Shown: piece after piece, positions 8,735 through 59,978 of the stretch
Layout: the number at the start of each line of letters is the position of its first letter
How positions within the stretch are numbered: position 1 is the first letter of the stretch
Assembly: GCF_014695955.1 (NCBI RefSeq)
Contig: NZ_JACJPG010000189.1
Span: 62,001 to 126,000, forward strand
From: Leptolyngbya sp. FACHB-36
Lineage (GTDB): Bacteria > Cyanobacteriota > Cyanobacteriia > Leptolyngbyales > Leptolyngbyaceae
Direction: 5' to 3'
DNA length: 64,000 bases
Made by a program: the position numbers and the translations under genes
Notes under the pieces: model-generated
Databases searched by the model: none
The model's input: only the letters and a program-made list of their open reading frames with translations
Told to the model about the DNA's origin: nothing

Positions 8735-10474
8735 CTAACTGCGACTTCTGAGACTAATTTCCTTGATTAAATCATCTGTGAATGATTGTGTTTTGAACTT
8801 ATCCCTATCAATTGAGCCCTTGGCAGCTTTATCTATACAAATGACTGCTTCTTGAACGAAATTTAGGCATTCATTAGAATCAGCTAAGACCTTAAGAACT
8901 TTGTCGCAATATGGCTCTATCTTTCTTTTGCTGGTGAATGGAGGACGTTCAACTCCTCCCGCCAGATATCGCAAAGCCATTAGAATATGAAAACGACAAA
9001 CTTTGTACTTTGGATCTATAACGTTCGCTCTATTGAACTGATTATCTAATACATAATAAGCACGAGCGCTTGTGTAATACGCAATAGATTCATGCTTTTC
9101 AGCAAAGATGTTTCCACCAACAACCTCCTTGTAGATATTCCCATAGTAACGGGAGGCTAAATGTGGTTGATCAAGGAACATTGCCGCAAAAGTTTTAATC
9201 TGATGAGTAATTGAAACTACTCTTCGCTTAATAACTCCTTGTCTAAATTGACCCGCTTGTCTTTCATAATATAGTGGGTCATCAATGTCCATTTTTGTGT
9301 AGTAAAGCTCCAGTTTTTTCTGGAAGTCTGATAAAGCGAGTAGCTCTTCTTTAGTAACCTCAGTTTGCCGATTACTAGCTTTGATGATATTGTTTACAAT
9401 TTCTTCCTGGGCAGCAACAACTATTTTTATAGGAATATATAGATTTTCAATTCCAGGAACGCTCTGATTCTCGAAAATAACATGGCTTGTTTGACATCCG
9501 TTAACAATTTGATAGTCATTTAATATAAGCTTCTTTCTAATTCCACTGATGGACTTAGCTACAATTGTTATCCCATTATTCAGAACTACAAATTGCTCAA
9601 TTCTGCCTGATTTTAAAGTTTTAGCAATGTCTACATTAACATCAATCTCAGGACCTTTATAGTACCTAACGTTGTCATAAAAAATAGAACTTCTTATTCT
9701 TCCGTATTCATCCTTAATTAGATTTATGAATTCCTTAAATGGTAAAACACCAATAAAAGCTTCAGTAACACCTTTTATCTCTGGCAAGGATACTCGGTCT
9801 TCAAAATCTATTTCAGCAGTTACTGTGGTCTTTGTGCTTCTATAAAGCTTATTAATCTCATCAGCCCCACAAGGAGTAAATATAACTTCTCTAAACAAGT
9901 TTTTGGAGTTATCGAGTAATTTTTCCTTTTGGTCCTCACATAATATTTTTAAGCTTGTGTCGTCATTCCATTGTCCGGTCGTAACATAATACAACTTACA
10001 AGTAGGTTTCACTTTAAGATAAACACTATTGTCGTCAAGAATAAAAGATACTAAATCTGCTTTATGTTGGATGAATTCATTGCTTGTAAGGGAGGATTTT
10101 TTATTAAAGAAGCAATCAACTCCATTAAAGAATTTAAGCAGATCACCACTATCAAATTTACTGGAAGTTTTAGCCTGAACAAATACACAAGTTAAATCCA
10201 GGGAGCCACTAACTCCTATTAATTCCTTAACTTCTTCTTTGGAATCAATCAGTCGTTCGTTTAAAAAGATAGCAATACCATCTATACCTATATCAAAGGG
10301 CAATTGACCAACAGAAACATCATCAACTTCAAATTCTTCCGAAGCATGGTATGGAAGCTCATGTGCTACTACACAGTAATTACAAAAAACTTCAAAGGCA
10401 TGAGCTTCATCAGGAATTGTCGTGCCGTTGTCCCGAAAGTAATCCTCCATTAGGCTTCTTGTAAGTCGATCCAT
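8735..10474 (-). CDS. AIPR family abortive-infection protein
   Basis: 579 residues on the minus strand, opposite to all its neighbours. The core carries the family's conserved features: NNGIT at 299-303, NGCQTS at 325-330 and ASNRQT at 366-371, followed by a helical C-terminal half. The N-terminal part has GIDGIAIFL (Asp65) and VFVQAKTS (Gln100-Lys102), a D...QxK arrangement like PD-(D/E)xK nucleases. AIPR proteins are linked to phage resistance by abortive infection in lactococci. The gene is clearly richer in A+T than the tail genes and I see no CGATCG in it, so it was probably acquired. It splits the tape measure from the hub gene. A weak ribosome site AAGGA lies about 11 bases before the ATG. 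Confidence 0.85.
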   Translation of the reverse strand: MDRLTRSLMEDYFRDNGTTIPDEAHAFEVFCNYCVVAHELPYHASEEFEVDDVSVGQLPFDIGIDGIAIFLNERLIDSKEEVKELIGVSGSLDLTCVFVQAKTSSKFDSGDLLKFFNGVDCFFNKKSSLTSNEFIQHKADLVSFILDDNSVYLKVKPTCKLYYVTTGQWNDDTSLKILCEDQKEKLLDNSKNLFREVIFTPCGADEINKLYRSTKTTVTAEIDFEDRVSLPEIKGVTEAFIGVLPFKEFINLIKDEYGRIRSSIFYDNVRYYKGPEIDVNVDIAKTLKSGRIEQFVVLNNGITIVAKSISGIRKKLILNDYQIVNGCQTSHVIFENQSVPGIENLYIPIKIVVAAQEEIVNNIIKASNRQTEVTKEELLALSDFQKKLELYYTKMDIDDPLYYERQAGQFRQGVIKRRVVSITHQIKTFAAMFLDQPHLASRYYGNIYKEVVGGNIFAEKHESIAYYTSARAYYVLDNQFNRANVIDPKYKVCRFHILMALRYLAGGVERPPFTSKRKIEPYCDKVLKVLADSNECLNFVQEAVICIDKAAKGSIDRDKFKTQSFTDDLIKEISLRSRS

Positions 10475-14322: not shown

Positions 14323-14398
14323 GGGGCGGTCGCCAAGTCTGGTAAGGCTCAGAGCTCGCAATTCTGCATCACCAGTTCGAATCTGGTTCGCCCCTCCA
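14323..14398 (+). tRNA. tRNA with anticodon CGC (tRNA-Ala by code)
   Basis: A 76-base cloverleaf with encoded CCA: acceptor GGGGCGG pairs with TCGCCCC (last pair G-T), D stem GCC/GGC, anticodon stem CAGAG/TTCTG with loop CTCGCAA, and T arm ACCAG-TTCGAAT-CTGGT. T33 is present, so the anticodon is CGC, reading GCG (Ala). The acceptor has G3-C70 rather than the G3-U70 pair that marks tRNA-Ala, and the D arm looks more like tRNA-Gln (GTCGCCAAG...GGTAAGGC), so true amino acid identity is uncertain. It lies between the hub terminator and accessory genes, a possible integration site or phage-supplied tRNA. Confidence 0.85.
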
Positions 14399-18430: not shown

Positions 18431-19004
18431 TTCCACCGTCTTCCTCCGACACGACGGCAAGGAGCGCAAAGACGTATTCTTTCGCATCAACCCGATCGCC
18501 ATTCGCGTACAGCAGGGCGAGAAAGGGGCAGTGGTGGAAACCCTGGGCGGCTACTACCGAGACGTTCTGTACTCAAAAGATCCGCAGTATCAAGGACTAG
18601 CTCTGGCAGACCTGACGATCGAGGCGACAACTGGCGTTGCGTATCGTCAGGAGCTAACGGTGGCTCAGTGGATTTGGCATCACGCCAGCGATCGTAAGAA
18701 AAACGGTGCTCCGGCGGATACCTATTTTTTCGATCTGACCGAAGACGCACCGTATCAAGGTGTTGTGCGGGCAACCCAGCGAGCATATCTAATCAAAATC
18801 TCCAACTTTGCCTGGGACGACACGGTGAACTCGCCGAATGAGATTCGCTTTTCGATGCGCTGCAAGGTGCTGAGAGATTTGTTTTGGGACTTGAGTCCGC
18901 CATCTACATCCTCTGCTCCGAACCTGTCGTCGATCGCCACAGGCGTCAGCCTGCCCACGTTCAACCCCAACAGCCTTGCAGGTCTGCCAGATCTGTCAAT
19001 CTAA
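18411..19004 (+). CDS. Putative baseplate protein
   Basis: 197 residues, starting inside the end of the spike gene. It has a beta-rich fold with FFRINPIAIRVQQGEK, TLGGYYRDVLY and LTIEATTGV, and a Pro/Ser/Asn-rich C-terminal tail. Its TAA overlaps the ATG of the histidine kinase (TAATG). Position between spike and LysM/gp25-like genes suggests a baseplate inner component, but I cannot name the family. Confidence 0.6.
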   Translation: MARQQRSSTVFLRHDGKERKDVFFRINPIAIRVQQGEKGAVVETLGGYYRDVLYSKDPQYQGLALADLTIEATTGVAYRQELTVAQWIWHHASDRKKNGAPADTYFFDLTEDAPYQGVVRATQRAYLIKISNFAWDDTVNSPNEIRFSMRCKVLRDLFWDLSPPSTSSAPNLSSIATGVSLPTFNPNSLAGLPDLSI

Positions 19005-19996
19005 TGAAAGCTTTGCCTTATCTGAGCGCGATCGGTATGATTGCGCTCGCAGTTCCGCTCAACGAAATTCTGCTGCGAACCGTTGATGTTAGTGCCTCGC
19101 CACTGTATCTATCCGCTGTTGCGATCTCGGCTGTGTTGCACGGTCCAATGGTAGGGACCTGCACTGCACTACTGTCAATACCTGCTTTTCTGCTGGTCAA
19201 TCCGACCCAGCTACCGTCACTGCTCTGGCTGCTGTGTGAAGAGTTTCTGGTTTTGGGGGTTTGTTGGCAGCGACTAGCAATGCAAGAACGGGATCGGGCA
19301 CGGGTAAGACAAATTGAGGAGGCGAGTCGATCGACATCGGCTCTGTCACACACGCTGCGATCGACCGTTACGAATATTCTGATGTCGGTTCAGGCGGCTC
19401 GTCGGCTACCTGAACGAGCCGCAGAGTTTACGGCGATTCTGGAGCGCGAAAGCGGTCAACTGCTGCGGACTGTTGGCGACATCCTGACGTTGCAGCACGT
19501 AGAGAACTCTGCTCAACAGATTCAGACGGACGTGATCGATGTGAAGCCGTGGTTGGAAGGATTAGCCGCACTGTTCGGTCCCCGTCTAGAACAGAAGTCT
19601 TTGCGCCTAATTTTCGACGTGGCAATCGTGCCGCCACTGCACACAGACGCCGCTCGACTGGACTTGGTGGTGCGGGAGCTGCTAGAGAATGCAGTCAAGT
19701 ACGCGCCTGTAAATGGAGTGGTCGAGGTGCGCTGCTGGCATCAGGGAGGGCAACACGCGATCGAGGTCGGCAATCCTTCTGACATCCCGATCAGCGAAAT
19801 GCCTAAATTATTTTTGCAGTTTTACCGAGGTTCAAACGCTAGGGGAGAGTCAGGCTCTGGCTTAGGGTTGTCGATCGCTCAAACAATCCTGTCCCAGCTC
19901 AAAGGCACAATTCAAGCAGATCAGGTGTATGGATGGATTACCTTTCTAGTCAAACTGCCGCCACTCCCCTCGATGTCGCTGCCCAAATCACTATGA
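19004..19996 (+). CDS. Membrane-bound sensor histidine kinase
   Basis: 330 residues. Residues about 4-88 form three or four hydrophobic helices (IGMIALAVPLNEILL, YLSAVAISAVLHG, TALLSIPAFLLV, LLWLLCEEFLVLGV), like small DUF4118 or MASE-type membrane sensors. Then comes a HisKA-like helix pair with LSHTLRSTVTNI (His116), the N box RELLENAVKYAP at about 222-233, and the ATP lid with LFLQFYRG and GSGLGLSIAQT near 284. All kinase boxes are present, so it is probably active. Start ATG overlaps the stop of a baseplate gene (TAATG) and its own stop overlaps the next ATG (ATGA), so it is translated with structural genes. No response regulator is in the window; it may feed a host regulator. Confidence 0.85.
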   Translation: MKALPYLSAIGMIALAVPLNEILLRTVDVSASPLYLSAVAISAVLHGPMVGTCTALLSIPAFLLVNPTQLPSLLWLLCEEFLVLGVCWQRLAMQERDRARVRQIEEASRSTSALSHTLRSTVTNILMSVQAARRLPERAAEFTAILERESGQLLRTVGDILTLQHVENSAQQIQTDVIDVKPWLEGLAALFGPRLEQKSLRLIFDVAIVPPLHTDAARLDLVVRELLENAVKYAPVNGVVEVRCWHQGGQHAIEVGNPSDIPISEMPKLFLQFYRGSNARGESGSGLGLSIAQTILSQLKGTIQADQVYGWITFLVKLPPLPSMSLPKSL

Positions 19997-47030: not shown

Positions 47031-48341
47031 CAATAGTCCGGACATTTTTTAAGCGGAAGTAGACAGGAAGGCTACCCATCGACTAGGGTGCGAGTAACAA
47101 CACAAACACCGGATGGATAGCCAGATGGAAGCCATTGTACAGAGCCTGCTGGCAACAGTGGGCGGTTTCGCAAACCGCAAACCAAGTTTTTAGTCACCCT
47201 GTTCTCAACGATTCTGATTGCAGTAGGCAAAGTGAACTTCACCAACTTGAGCCGTTACAGTGCGTTGAACGAGCGCACCTACCGACGGCAATTCGAGCAG
47301 GAAGTCGAGTTTGCCCAGTTGAATCGCACCTTAGTTGAGCAGTACACCGACCCAACCCATCAACTGTTGGCGGTGATGGACTGCTCGTTCATCGCTAAAA
47401 GCGGCAAAGCCACTTGCGGGCGTGACTGGTACTGGAACGGCTGTGCCAACCGAGTAGAGCAGGGCTTAGAGGTCTCGCTGATCGGCGTAGTCGATGTCGA
47501 AGCGCAAACGGGCTATGCTCTTTCAGCGCAGCAGACCTTTGCTCAAAAAGACTTGCCAGACCTGACGCGGATGGATCAATATCTCTACCACCTCGATACG
47601 ATGCGCTGTGAGTTGCCGCCTAGCGTCAAGTACTTAGCCGTCGATGGAGCCTATGCTAAGGAGAACTTCATCACTGGAGCGGTGCAGCTTGAGTTGCACG
47701 TGATCAGCAAATTGCGCTGCGACGCGAACTTGCGCTGGCTCTACATGGGTGAGCAAAAACCGCGTGGCAGAAGACGCAAATACGACGGCAAAGTCGAGTT
47801 GAGCCATCAGGAGCGATTGACGTTTGTTGAGACGCTACGGCCTGGGGTGGATCTGTACACTGCCACTGTGTTCCATGTTTCGCTCAAGCGCACAATTCGA
47901 TTGGCCTATCCGCTGAATCGCAGCAATCCGACAAAGCCCCGGTTTGTGGTGTTGTTTTCGACCGATGTTGAGCAAGACCCGCTTGAGATCTACCGCCTCT
48001 ACAGCCTGCGCTTTCAGGTGGAATTTCTGTTTCGTGATGCCAAGCAGTTCACCGGGCTGGCCGATTGTCAAGCCCGTGACTGCGTCAAATTGGAGTTTCA
48101 CTTCAACGCCAGTTTCACCGCGCTTAATCTTGCTAAAATCGAAGCGCACCAACAGCATCATGCGGGCACACCGCTGACCTTCTCGATGGCAAGTATGAAG
48201 CGACGTGCCCTCAATGAGCATCTGCTTGAGCGCTTTATTTCCAACTTAGACCTCTCACCGAGCGTGATTAAAGCTCATCCCAACTACGAAAAGCTCAGGA
48301 ATTACGGCATGATTGCCGCTTAAATCCTGTCCGAACTATTG
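47031..48341 (+). mobile_element. IS4-family insertion sequence with decayed transposase
   Basis: The ends CAATAGTCCGGACA...TTTAAGCG (47031-47055) and the complement of 48317-48341 match as 25-bp imperfect terminal inverted repeats. The element is about 1.3 kb with one transposase frame, which is broken near its start. I could not see a convincing target duplication on the flanks. A third end-like sequence lies at 49008-49027. Confidence 0.75.
47113..48323 (+). pseudogene. IS4-type DDE transposase, frameshifted
   Basis: The main frame has the IS4 signature YSLRFQVEFLFRDAK (Y-x2-R-x3-E-x6-K), with VMDCSFIAKSGK and LAVDGAYAKEN holding the first two Asp. Its natural N-terminus (MDSQMEAIVQSLLATVGG from ATG 47113) is in another frame. 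The join would be at GGTTTCGC (47164-47171): adding one T there restores a continuous protein running into RKPQTKFLVTLFSTIL. No classical slippery heptamer is seen, so a one-base loss is more likely than programmed slippage. A shorter start at GTG 47232 leaves 363 residues. Confidence 0.7.
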
Positions 48342-55578: not shown

Positions 55579-56580
55579 ATGGTATCCCAGAACGCCAAAA
55601 CCAGCAAAACGACAAACGCTGATTCCGTCAGAGCCTACCTGGTAGAAATTGGACAAATCGATCTACTAACTAAAAATAGGGAAGTTGAGCTAGGCAAGCA
55701 AATTCATCAGGCACAGCCCTTATGGACGCTGCGCGAGGAGATGGAGAAAACACTCCAGCGCACTCCCACCCGTGAAGAATGGCAGGCTGCCAGCGAACTT
55801 CCCGCTAAAGAGTTCGATCGACGACTACATATTGGCAATAGAGCTAGGGAAAAGCTAATTGAGGCAAACCTGCGCCTCGTTGTCTCGATTGCCAAGAAAT
55901 ACTTGAATCGCGGCGTATCGTTTCAGGACCTGATTCAAGAGGGGTCGATCGGACTGATGCGGGCAGCGGAAAAGTTTGATTTTACAAAGAACTGCAAGTT
56001 CTCGACCTACGCGCACTGGTGGATTCGTCAAGCGGTGACGCGGGCAATCTCGCAGCAGTCCCGCACAGTTCGACTGCCTGTACATTTGTGGGAGTCCGTT
56101 GGCAAAATCCGCAAAGCCAGCAGACAGTTTCATGCTGAGAACAATCGATACCCAACCGAGCGTGAGCTTGCCGAATTACTGGAGTGGTCGGTTGATCGAG
56201 TGCGCCAGATTCGTCAGCACAGCCAGCCAATTGTCAGTCTAAACACCAAGATCGGGCAAGACGAGGACACCGAATTGCTAGACATACAGGCAGCCTCGAT
56301 CAAGCCGATCGACGGCGGGCTGCAACTTGATTGGATGCGTGAAGAAATTGCGGCGCGAATCGAGTGGGCTGTCAAAGACGACCATTCCAGCGAAAAGGCA
56401 CGAAATATAGAGATGTTTCGACTGCGATCTGGACTGGTAGATGGAAAAGGCTGGAAGCTTAGCGAGATCGGCGAGGCTTACGGAGTAAGTCGAGAACGGG
56501 TGCGCCAGATTTGCCAAAAGATCGATCGCCAACTTCGACAAATTGCCAGGACTCAAGAACTGGACACCCATTCAATTTGA
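55579..56580 (+). CDS. Sigma-70 family RNA polymerase sigma factor (group 2-like)
   Basis: 333 residues. Region 1.2 (DSVRAYLVEIGQIDLLT), region 2 (LRLVVSIAKKYLNRGVSFQD, then LIQEGSIGLMRAAEKFD and FSTYAHWWIRQAVTRAI), region 3 (RYPTERELAELLEW) and region 4 (LSEIGEAYGVSRERVRQIC) are all present, so it is a full primary-like sigma without the long region 1.1. Cyanobacteria have several such group 2 factors, and this one resembles them. In a phage early region it would redirect host RNA polymerase, perhaps to the repeated tail promoters. The next gene begins five bases after its stop. Confidence 0.9.
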   Translation: MVSQNAKTSKTTNADSVRAYLVEIGQIDLLTKNREVELGKQIHQAQPLWTLREEMEKTLQRTPTREEWQAASELPAKEFDRRLHIGNRAREKLIEANLRLVVSIAKKYLNRGVSFQDLIQEGSIGLMRAAEKFDFTKNCKFSTYAHWWIRQAVTRAISQQSRTVRLPVHLWESVGKIRKASRQFHAENNRYPTERELAELLEWSVDRVRQIRQHSQPIVSLNTKIGQDEDTELLDIQAASIKPIDGGLQLDWMREEIAARIEWAVKDDHSSEKARNIEMFRLRSGLVDGKGWKLSEIGEAYGVSRERVRQICQKIDRQLRQIARTQELDTHSI

Positions 56581-56585
56581 CCACT

Positions 56586-57743
56586 ATGTCCCGACAAACA
56601 AGACTTGACGCGAGGACGATCGAGGCGCTGCTGAAGCATGTCGAGAAGCGTCCTGGCATTTCCGAACCTGAACTGGCAGTCTGCCTTGGACTGAAACCCT
56701 GGACCGAACGAGCAAAAAAAGATAAAGCGCCCTCAAAAGTTCCGAATCGCCTACTAAGGGACACACTCAAACAGCTAGCAGAAGAGGCTGTAATTCAATA
56801 CAAGCAAGACCAGTTTGCGACTCAAGGTGAGCCGTTTAAGGTGTTCCCAGCGAGCTACAAACTACCGCAGAAGAAGAGGCGTTCTCCATCTGATAGCTGC
56901 CGAACGTACACGGCTTCGTCTGAAAAGATTCGACAGTTAACTGCAAAAACGTCCACAAAGATTGCGCCCTTTCGACTACTTGGGAAGCCCGTTATAACGG
57001 AAGATGAGAACATGAAAAAAAAGCCTGAGAAAGAAAACGGATACGACCTGCTTGAGCGCTGCAAACAGAAAGAATCAGGGCGTCGATCGCCAGATAGTTT
57101 GAAGGAGGCTGTTCGACGCGCTATTCAGAAAATGCTTGATTCAGGACAGCCTTGGACACTAGGAAAAGTGTGCAGCTATGCGGCTGTCCCAGAAGACTAC
57201 CTGCACAAAAATGCCGACATGATGCAGGAGTTTGGTAGGGCATTAAGCCAAATTCAAAAGACCTTACTACTGCCGGAACAACTATCTCAACCCGCAGCTA
57301 AGGAGGCTAAAACCGCACCAGTCAAGACAGAGGAGATTGAACAACTCCAAGAGCTTGAAGAAGTCAATCGGGATCTCAGAACTCGACTAGCGGACGCCGA
57401 AGCGCGCATTCAACAACTTGAGCAGGATTTACAGGAGGCAGCGCGACTGCAAGCGAAGATCCGGCAGTTAGAAACCGTAAACGAAAGTTTGCGTGATCGC
57501 ATCGGGGCGATAGAAGGTTCATCGTACTGCTCTGACTCGCAACTAATTGCCTGCCTTGCGGATGAGGAGATCCGTTATCGCCTGAAGGTTAAGCAATGCA
57601 CTCAGGAGATTGAACAGCTCCAAGAAGATGTAGCAGTGTCACAGGCAGTTGCAGATGTACTGCGAAATCTGATTGAGCGCAAGCAGTGGGACGCTATCGA
57701 GACGATCGACGAATTTAGCGGAGGCAACCATGTTAAGCCCTGA
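56586..57743 (+). CDS. Hypothetical protein with winged-helix-like start and coiled coil
   Basis: 385 residues from ATG 56586. The first 70 residues (TIEALLKHVEKRPGISEPEL, LLRDTLKQLAEEAVIQYK) suggest a winged-helix DNA-binding unit; about 165-230 is helical (SLKEAVRRAIQKMLDSGQ) and 245-360 a long coiled coil (EEIEQLQELEEVNRDLRTRL). Several basic segments. It may regulate transcription or serve as a DNA-organising protein. It overlaps the next gene by 14 bases. Confidence 0.55.
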   Translation: MSRQTRLDARTIEALLKHVEKRPGISEPELAVCLGLKPWTERAKKDKAPSKVPNRLLRDTLKQLAEEAVIQYKQDQFATQGEPFKVFPASYKLPQKKRRSPSDSCRTYTASSEKIRQLTAKTSTKIAPFRLLGKPVITEDENMKKKPEKENGYDLLERCKQKESGRRSPDSLKEAVRRAIQKMLDSGQPWTLGKVCSYAAVPEDYLHKNADMMQEFGRALSQIQKTLLLPEQLSQPAAKEAKTAPVKTEEIEQLQELEEVNRDLRTRLADAEARIQQLEQDLQEAARLQAKIRQLETVNESLRDRIGAIEGSSYCSDSQLIACLADEEIRYRLKVKQCTQEIEQLQEDVAVSQAVADVLRNLIERKQWDAIETIDEFSGGNHVKP

Positions 57744-58392
57744 GCAGTTTAAGCAATACCTGGCGATCGAGCAGGCAAAACTCTTCACCTTAGAGCGGAT
57801 TGCAGTGTCGCTGGAGCGCATGGCTCCGACCGACCAAAAAGCACCAAGCTGGACTAAACCACTGTCTGATTTTCTGCAATTTGACTGGGCATCTATTGGG
57901 GCAACAGTGGTTTCAATGGACGACAGCGGTCCCTCGATCGTCGAGTGGAATGGCAAGCAATTCTATCGACGATCACCAAATAACCGATTCGGTGAAGCTA
58001 TCTGGTTCTCCCGTTCTATTGGAGAGCAAGATAGCGAAGGAAAGACGATTTACGAACGGCTAGTTACGTTCAAACTATTGACTGAAGTTGAGCCGATCCC
58101 TAACAAGGTTAACCGAGCGATCGAGTTTGCATCAAAGTCTCAACAAATTAATCCGAAGACAAATCCTGCTGCTGTTGTTTTGAAGGAGGATCTGTCTCAT
58201 CTGATTTCTCTAAGTGATTTCCATTTAGCAAGACTTGGATGGGACAAAGATCAGGGACGGGAGTATCTAGAAAAAACCTACAGAAAGCGATCAAGACAAC
58301 AGCTAACTGATGAAGAGTTAGCAGACTTCGTGGAGCGCCTTTCAAGGCTGCCATCGAACGTGCCAACGAACGTCGAAGGGGCTAGAACGTGA
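57730..58392 (+). CDS. Conserved cyanobacterial phage/plasmid protein, unknown
   Basis: 220 residues from ATG 57730. A helical N-terminus (QFKQYLAIEQAKLFTLERIA) precedes a beta domain with WNGKQFYRRSPNNRFGEAIW and a C-terminal unit (HLARLGWDKDQGREYLEKTY, RKRSRQQLTDEELADFV). That last unit also occurs, as I recall, at the end of cyanobacterial Rad52-like annealing proteins, so a role in recombination is possible. It overlaps the initiator gene by four bases. Confidence 0.5.
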   Translation: MLSPEQFKQYLAIEQAKLFTLERIAVSLERMAPTDQKAPSWTKPLSDFLQFDWASIGATVVSMDDSGPSIVEWNGKQFYRRSPNNRFGEAIWFSRSIGEQDSEGKTIYERLVTFKLLTEVEPIPNKVNRAIEFASKSQQINPKTNPAAVVLKEDLSHLISLSDFHLARLGWDKDQGREYLEKTYRKRSRQQLTDEELADFVERLSRLPSNVPTNVEGART

Positions 58393-59576
58393 CAGGCTGC
58401 CTTTACGACGCCAGAGAGCGGCATGTTTTTATACCGTCAAAGTTTGATGACTTACCCTTAACGCTTGAAGCCTATCGAGTCTATTGCCACTTAGCTCGAC
58501 GAGTCAACAAAGAAACTCGCACCGCCTACCCCAGTTACAGCGCGATCGGTGAGTCTTGCTTTCGCGGTTCTTACCCCAATTCATCGGCTTCATCTCTAAA
58601 GGCAAAAGCAATTGCAGCCGTGAAAGAGTTAATTGATTTTGGTTTGGTCAGGAAGGAATACCACAGCGAAGGCAAGGAATTCAAGCACAACGTCTACCAC
58701 TTGACTCCTCAAAACGAATGGGTCACGCCTGAAGAAGCTGTCAACTCCTGCAATGTCAGAAAAGGACGGCAAGGGCTCAAGAGGGGGGTGGCTAACGGGG
58801 ATAACCACCCGGTTAACGGGGATAACCAGGGGGGGTGGTCAACCGGGATAACCACCCTGGTTAACGGGGATAGCCTACCCCGGTTAACAGGGATAACCAC
58901 CCCGGTTAACCCCACAGTACCTAAAGGAAACTCCATTGAAGGAAACTCCATTGAAGGAAACTCCATTGAAGGAGATCGATCGCCAAAACGCGATTTGACA
59001 ACACCTTCCAACCTGATCGAATCCCGCGCTGTCGCGCGTGAAGCGATCGAGATCAACGGAGTAAGGACGGATTTAATTCAACCGGAAGTAGTCGAGACTC
59101 TCGCTGTCAGTCCAGACCTCAAATCAAGCCTTACTGGTCAAGTTGAAAACGGCTTGAAGGGGACGATCGTTCCGACGTCGCGGCGCAAACAGAAAAAACA
59201 AAAATCATCGCCTGATCGACGACCAGAAGCCTTTGAGCAGTTTTGGGAGGTCTACAGGGGCTTTTGCCTTGAGGTCGGTAGTGAGGCGGGACGACGTACC
59301 GAAGCTGTAGTTGCCTGGGATGCCCTGCTGCTTGAGGACTGCTTGGAGGCTCTCCAGGAAGGCACAGCCTACTACGTCGAGATCAAGCATGAGCAGTTTT
59401 TACGGAAAGGTGAGGCGATTGGCGTCTCACACGCCTGCCGTTACTTACGTGATCGCAAGTGGCAAGACGCCCTGGATTACAAGCGCCGCCAAGTGAATTC
59501 TTCTCCCCTGAGTTCCGCAGACCGACGTGCAATGCAAACCTACGAGTCCGCGATGGCGGCAATTGCAAACCTGTAA
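58389..59576 (+). CDS. Replication initiator-like (phage O/DnaD-type) protein
   Basis: 395 residues from GTG or ATG-like start at 58389. The N-terminal 115 residues (LTLEAYRVYCHLARRV, YPSYSAIGESCF, AAVKELIDFGLVRKEYHSEG) form a winged-helix of the type seen in lambda O and RepA-like initiators. The middle (about 130-220) is low complexity because the DNA here is made of iterons, and it codes for NGDN and GNSIEG repeats. The C-terminal part (EAFEQFWEVYRGFCLEVGSE, HACRYLRDRKW) resembles the DnaD/helicase-recruiting tail of phage initiators. It is followed by a small gene at the position of lambda P. It should bind its own origin and load the replisome. Confidence 0.68.
   Translation: MTGCLYDARERHVFIPSKFDDLPLTLEAYRVYCHLARRVNKETRTAYPSYSAIGESCFRGSYPNSSASSLKAKAIAAVKELIDFGLVRKEYHSEGKEFKHNVYHLTPQNEWVTPEEAVNSCNVRKGRQGLKRGVANGDNHPVNGDNQGGWSTGITTLVNGDSLPRLTGITTPVNPTVPKGNSIEGNSIEGNSIEGDRSPKRDLTTPSNLIESRAVAREAIEINGVRTDLIQPEVVETLAVSPDLKSSLTGQVENGLKGTIVPTSRRKQKKQKSSPDRRPEAFEQFWEVYRGFCLEVGSEAGRRTEAVVAWDALLLEDCLEALQEGTAYYVEIKHEQFLRKGEAIGVSHACRYLRDRKWQDALDYKRRQVNSSPLSSADRRAMQTYESAMAAIANL
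58793..58910. repeat. Iteron array inside the initiator gene, candidate origin
   Basis: TAAC-GGGATAACC-type units begin at 58793, 58814, 58840, 58862 and 58885, with a half-unit at 58907; spacings are 21, 26, 22, 23 and 22 bases. Several carry CACCCCGGT arms that make each unit partly palindromic. The arrangement recalls the lambda origin within gene O. Confidence 0.75.
58926..58970. repeat. Three perfect tandem 15-bp repeats
   Basis: GGAAACTCCATTGAA occurs three times in a row at 58926, 58941 and 58956, in frame, coding GNSIE units. They follow the iterons and may be an A+T-richer melting or binding segment. Confidence 0.9.
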
Positions 59577-59579
59577 TCC

Positions 59580-59978
59580 ATGATTGACAAAGAAGTTTTT
59601 TCCAAGTGGTTCACTATCCTGTCCGAGCGATTTCGCCAATCGTTTAGCGGACCCACGATCGCGGTGTACTACGAATTTCTTGGTCCCAAACTCAGCACCG
59701 AGCAGTTTGAGGCGGTTGCGCGGTACTTGTTTGGCGGAGACGGAAGTTCGCTGCCATCCCCGCCGGAAATCGTCAGCTTGGCGCGAACGCTGGTCCCAGA
59801 TCCGGCGCTGCCTGAAGCGCCTCTGCCGAAGTTGTACTGCGAGATGACGCCAGCGGAGCAGGCGAACTACCGCCAGGTGATCGATTGCTTCCGGGCGATG
59901 CTAGTTGAAGTTGATCCCAAATTTGCCAAGTTCGGTGCCGAAATCATCAAGGCAGCCGTCGAGGGAGGGCAGGCGTAA
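59580..59978 (+). CDS. Possible helicase-loader-like protein
   Basis: 132 residues, ATG four bases after the initiator stop. The start (MIDKEVFSKWFTILSERFRQ, then SGPTIAVYYEFLGPKLSTEQ) is helical and resembles small phage proteins placed after initiators, such as lambda P-type loaders, although it lacks a Walker motif. Its TAA overlaps the next ATG. The function is inferred from position. Confidence 0.5.
   Translation: MIDKEVFSKWFTILSERFRQSFSGPTIAVYYEFLGPKLSTEQFEAVARYLFGGDGSSLPSPPEIVSLARTLVPDPALPEAPLPKLYCEMTPAEQANYRQVIDCFRAMLVEVDPKFAKFGAEIIKAAVEGGQA

Follow-up and report, generated by a model that had tools for sequence, protein, structure and literature searches.

The stretch of DNA analysed here (hereafter, the window) is 64,000 nucleotides long and lies on a 130,314-base contig of a draft assembly of the source genome, which comprises 4.26 Mb in 692 contigs. 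The window carries a gene for a putative replication initiator (Table 1). To the left of this gene are phage genes, including those encoding a tail sheath (PHROG 279) and a baseplate, and an integrase (PHROG 1) and reading frames that appear host-like by eye are found on the same contig to the right of the window. Based upon this arrangement, we concluded that the element holding the initiator gene is most likely a provirus. A phage-borne primary-type sigma factor gene (55579-56580) lies ahead of the replication genes, a histidine kinase gene with HisKA and ATPase domains (18884-19996) lies near the baseplate genes, and the region also contains a tRNA-Ala (cgc) gene (14323-14398) and a DDE transposase gene (47232-48323). 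An AIPR-family gene on the opposite strand (8735-10474), located in a low-GC island flanked by phage genes, possibly has a role in abortive infection. The octamer GCGATCGC, a mark of cyanobacteria, occurs 32 times as compared with 1.1 expected occurrences.

The GTG start codon of the initiator gene is preceded, 8 bp upstream, by AAGGGG. The product matches PHROG 270, "replication initiation protein", over residues 23-378 (E 6.7e-15), and Pfam HTH_36 (PF13730) with an E-value of 1.7e-5 and 24.9 bits, where the cut-off is 25; a relative from an IMG/VR phage, L067, passes the same cut-off with 26.5 bits. The RepA_N domain is absent from the Pfam matches of the product. The protein is laid out as an N-terminal winged helix, a linker encoded by repeats and a C-terminal domain. 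An AlphaFold2 model covering residues 1-125 has a winged-helix fold (mean pLDDT 83.4, pTM 0.74). Its structural neighbours at Z 7.8-8.5 include the initiator entries 4pt7, 4pql, and 5kbj, presumably staphylococcal RepA, but scores almost as high were obtained for many unrelated winged-helix proteins. Sequence searches of the PDB with the initiator gave no initiator match. Judged by the profile matches and the model, the product is a winged-helix replication initiator. An earlier note on this DNA had called the gene lambda O-like, which is borne out for its plan and PHROG class, but the lambda O family as such is weakly supported, with E-values of about 0.02 for the lambda O-like PHROGs (0.016 for PHROG 678 and 0.019 for PHROG 8540).

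The initiator gene is preceded by a gene for a DdrB-like protein, a single-strand-binding protein of the Deinococcus type, and followed directly by a gene for a 132-amino acid protein. In a single comparison, the latter product was 24% identical over 71 residues to that of the gene after the initiator in a relative, L030 (E 7e-5), and it has a weak match to PHROG 10105 (E 0.16).

Table 1. Features of the initiator locus, in window coordinates
Feature	Position	Strand	Basis or remark
DdrB-like single-strand DNA-binding protein gene	57730..58392	+	Pfam DdrB, E 1.4e-10; overlaps initiator start
Replication initiator gene, 395 aa, GTG start	58389..59576	+	PHROG 270, Pfam HTH_36
DNA-binding domain	58389..58727	+	AlphaFold2 model; recognition helix residues 67-83, putative specificity residue Ala72
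Iteron 1, GGCTAACGGGGATAACC	58790..58806	+	Sequence matching
Iteron 2, GGTTAACGGGGATAACC	58811..58827	+	Sequence matching
Iteron 3, GGTCAACCGGGATAACC	58837..58853	+	Sequence matching
Iteron 4, GGTTAACGGGGATAGCC	58859..58875	+	Sequence matching
Iteron 5, GGTTAACAGGGATAACC	58882..58898	+	Sequence matching
Isolated half-site, GGTTAACCCC	58904..58913	+	Sequence
Direct repeat of 15 bp in three perfect copies, AAGGAAACTCCATTG; candidate for the unwinding side	58924..58968	+	Direct matching; motif model
132-aa gene, candidate helicase loader (tentative; weak matches)	59580..59978	+	Directly 3' of initiator gene

Beginning approximately 400 bp inside the coding sequence, the initiator gene contains five 17-bp interrupted palindromes of the GGTTAACGGGGATAACC type (58790-58898), with start-to-start spacings of 21, 26, 22, and 23 bp. 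The earlier note had counted five to six units at about 22 bp; five of these are full iterons at the spacings given, and the sixth is a half-site (58904-58913). When up to three mismatches were allowed, the 64-kb window gave six matches, including a weak overlap on the minus strand, and none of 100 dinucleotide shuffles gave more than four. The array score of the gene was 27, as compared with a maximum of 18 in 300 shuffles that kept the protein and the codon usage, none of which reproduced the array. Within the entire 4.26-Mb assembly, the only matches with no or one mismatch were the five copies of the array, and four others with two mismatches were scattered. As the iteron copies occur in more than one codon phase, the repeat belongs to the DNA rather than to the protein. 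We found no clear switch of GC skew at the array, and a local cumulative minimum near 54-56 kb, both of which we count against an origin at this site.

The array is followed by three copies of the 15-bp sequence AAGGAAACTCCATTG (58924-58938, 58939-58953, and 58954-58968), which are 100% identical, as the earlier note had stated, and in frame with each other; the repeat runs on to 58973. In a stability scan of the gene, these repeats formed an easily melted stretch adjoining the iterons, with only ~1% of the gene's windows being less stable. Their A+T content is 9 of 15, as compared with the long A/T tract of lambda, and this is counted against the origin reading. We also considered the 15-mers as DnaA boxes and dropped the idea by eye: the Nostoc form of the 15-mer partly resembles a box, but the window form does not.

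Relatives of the initiator were found by tblastn on 11 plasmids of Nostoc and Deinococcus, and more came from profile scans and additional searches. Single-sequence searches of phages, genome contigs, and viral contigs yielded no relative, and the only match among 58 related genomes was the source genome itself. The resulting survey comprises 74 genes, including the window's own, lambda, and many close Nostoc copies. We defined long genes as those with a frame of at least 780 nt (n = 55); the 19 short ones are mostly a helix-turn-helix domain alone or cut genes. An array was considered significant if it had at least three copies and a score reached by no synonymous shuffle of that gene. By this measure, 41 of the 55 long genes (window and lambda counted) have an embedded array, as compared with 1 of the 19 short ones. 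The remaining 14 long genes count against the origin reading. The position is conserved, with arrays in relatives beginning ~310-550 nt into the gene, and of the 143 spacings, 100 are not divisible by three, those of 22 and 23 bp dominating. As far as these sequences indicate, the embedded array is therefore not peculiar to the window but occurs in many elements of cyanobacteria and Deinococcus. Many relatives also carry an adjoining dnaB, which is the next gene after the initiator in all four of the small Nostoc plasmids that we fetched (about 32-44 kb). Four Nostoc relatives (L022, L025, L026, and L027) are shortened or are without the middle part, a pattern that looks like loss or disruption of the initiator-origin cassette. 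A related helix-turn-helix gene in the Cylindrospermopsis phage Cr-LKS4 (L072) encodes 662 amino acids and is without a significant iteron array.

The iteron sequence varies between lineages together with the recognition helix. In all 12 of the lineages tabulated, the residue that follows Leu-Lys/Arg in the helix tracks the half-site: Ala is found with GTT (window and L067), Arg with GTG (the main Nostoc group, L002, L033, and L064), Gln with GTA (the L009 group, L030, and L031), and Asn with GCA (L005, L011, and L032). The 12 lineages were chosen for their clear dyads, those of L033 and L064 being 12 rather than 15 bp. One gene, L007, was omitted from the dyad listing because its best chain is a 36-bp protein repeat, though its iterons are visible in another comparison. 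Three further genes that align in the helix, L037, L038, and L070, were left out of the residue table: no clear array was obtained for L037 and L070, and L038, which has Arg, carries a different palindrome that would not fit GTG and is counted against the correspondence. A perfect map between residue 72 and half-site arose in 3 of 1,000,000 permutations of the 12 lineages, a figure that ignores shared ancestry; on a tree of the lineages, whose branches are mostly weak or open, about three changes are needed for Arg and two for Gln, and the lineages are not independent. The iteron and the SLKAK helix of the phage relative L067 are identical to those of the window. Exact iteron matches occur in 23 IMG/VR stretches, and the L067 contig is the only one with more than one, namely five. 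In the N-terminal part, L067 (55.8% identity to the window) is not clearly nearer than L003 (55.2%). Overall, these comparisons support the idea that the iteron sequence follows the recognition helix.

The two elements are also exchanged together. The plasmid genes L043 and L074 are 90% identical over residues 197-373, but their N-terminal parts do not align and they carry different iteron arrays. Similarly, the helix and iterons of L029 are unlike those of the Nostoc group, while its C-terminal half is, by eye, closely similar. Such patterns indicate that the DNA-binding domain and its iterons have been swapped as a unit, with retention of the C-terminal half. An exchange of the same kind is described for pPR9 in a section of PMC5703833, where an HTH_36 N-domain and origin replaced those of pSK41 and the C-domain was kept.

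Just 3' of the iterons, most lineages have a motif of approximately AAGG(N)2-3TCC, in two to four copies that are mostly 13-18 bp apart, whatever the iteron sequence of the lineage. With 30 lineages as the training set and the window left out, a motif model reached a likelihood of 377, as compared with a maximum of 103 in 20 shuffled sets, and identified the three window repeats as the sole cluster of three on both strands of the 64 kb; they were still found when the window's whole clade was withheld from training. Since the arrays of L070 and L080 are unclear, the segments taken from these two for the motif analysis were given manually shifted starts, by 45 and 30 nt. When the motif was held out by clade, the 2,790 nt that follow the arrays gave 46 matches, and the 35,328 nt outside these segments gave 6. 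At least one match was present in 19 of the 31 lineages and at least two in 18, and the 12 with none count against the origin reading. Copies in relatives use all three codon phases (7, 16, and 28 copies), and in L031 a single gene uses two reading frames for the same motif bases. The motif was not found after the arrays of five phages of non-cyanobacterial hosts or of lambda, and is thus not universal. Nor was it seen downstream of the arrays of L074-L076, which have another N-terminal domain and are outside the 31 lineages of the clade-held-out test. By eye, the arrays of L084 and L087 (phages of Acinetobacter and Arthrobacter) are followed by phased 12-bp repeats of another kind; short repeats at this position may therefore be a wider theme, with a sequence specific to the lineage.

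The earlier note had proposed a candidate origin on the lambda plan inside the initiator gene, and the predicted initiator fold, the conserved position of the array, the co-variation of helix and iterons, the unstable motif repeats, and the replicon setting in relatives, with dnaB beside the initiator on small Nostoc plasmids, all support that proposal. We put at about 0.86 the probability that a contractile-tailed temperate cyanobacterial phage has its theta-type replication origin in this stretch, embedded in the middle of the initiator gene. The best reading of the sequence is a lambda-type theta origin made up of lineage-specific iterons and a conserved unwinding-side repeat.

By analogy with known systems, the winged helix of the initiator would bind the five dyad iterons, with recognition helix 67-83 reading the half-site GTT. 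Since about two helical turns separate one iteron from the next, the bound dimers would stack into an O-some-like complex and so strain the adjoining repeats. The three 15-bp repeats would then open, with one strand being held by the initiator or another factor, and a helicase would be loaded, probably host DnaB via a downstream gene product. This last step is the least certain; host DnaB is proposed because no dnaB was found by Pfam or PHROG among the genes tested, whereas many relatives have one adjoining.

The repeats might instead be a repetitive linker, which is maintained at the protein level or arose by recent slippage and has no function in the DNA. The product is of low complexity here, the 15-bp copies do not differ from one another and keep the frame, and every spacing is a multiple of three in 8 of the 42 arrays. 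However, the spacings in the window (21, 26, 22, and 23 bp) do not keep to one reading frame, none of the 300 shuffles that preserved the protein matched the array, the motif copies of relatives fall in all three codon phases, and the half-sites change with the recognition helix; we consider a linker of this sort scarcely credible. Iteron-binding initiators often autoregulate, and repeats within a transcribed gene could serve that end. The array might therefore be a set of operators through which the initiator mainly represses or times its own operon, with replication starting elsewhere. This is improbable, given that the array is ~400 bp into the coding sequence and not at a promoter, that conserved motif repeats follow it where the gene is least stable, and that the plan equals that of the mapped origins of lambda and pSK41.

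It is also conceivable, albeit unlikely, that the stretch was a true origin ancestrally and is now an inactive relic, in a provirus that is defective or a contig that does not correspond to a working phage. The assembly is a draft of 692 contigs, the contig ends at 130,314, and the region holds the DDE transposase gene mentioned above. Nevertheless, the initiator frame is intact, the five iterons are near the consensus, and the neighbouring replication genes are open.

The stretch may belong to a two-tier origin family, an idea that we hold tentatively, at somewhat less than even odds. Variable iterons would be read by an exchangeable winged helix, in which residue 72 determines which base stands third in the half-site (Ala-T, Arg-G, Gln-A, and Asn with GCA). 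The invariant AAGG(N)2-3TCC repeat, every 13-18 bp, would be recognised, perhaps as a single strand, by something common to many phages and plasmids of cyanobacteria and Deinococcus.

Origins inside initiator genes are already well known from lambda and pSK41, but the details of this family look new, and we know of no description of the family-wide motif or of the helix code. The earlier note had taken this origin to be perhaps the first such one described for the host group; we found no account of an embedded origin in cyanobacterial phages or plasmids in the open-access literature searched. The passages of PMC10899382 on the Rep proteins of large cyanobacterial plasmids concern other Rep families, and passages of PMC3832669 and PMC8951638 describe HTH_36 replication genes in other hosts. 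Cyanobacterial phages and plasmids gain a predicted origin with named parts that could be cloned as a mini-replicon, and the many natural pairs of helix and iteron in the family provide material for a recognition code. With the conserved repeat, one can also ask by experiment if phage initiators, like plasmid Rep, recognise one particular single strand of the unwinding element.

As in the window, the ori of lambda lies in gene O, which encodes an initiator with an N-terminal DNA-binding part and contains dyad iterons mid-gene, followed by the unwinding side. The annotated iterons of lambda are 18 bp in length, number four rather than five, and start 20, 24, and 23 bp apart. Iteron and initiator sequences differ between the two, and in the window the A/T tract of lambda is replaced by the three 15-bp repeats. 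In a section of PMC7466680, lambda O is described as binding the iterons and also the A/T tract in single-stranded form. The RepA_N origin of pSK41 from Staphylococcus likewise lies centrally within rep, whose product has a winged-helix N-domain, according to part of PMC5703833. pSK41 and pPR9 differ from the window in host phylum and in sequence, and the likeness seen here does not extend to a primase-binding C-domain. The oriV of RK2 resembles the window in having iterons followed by short phased repeats, with an initiator of an unrelated family and a unit of 13 bp, as compared with 13-18 bp in the window's family. The RK2 origin lies outside rep. In the part of PMC4081077 that deals with the 13-mers, Rep binds one of their strands, all of them are needed, and replication stops when they are altered. 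Conservation of one repeat alongside changing iterons fits a second recognition site for the window's family, comparable to that of plasmid Rep on its 13-mers.
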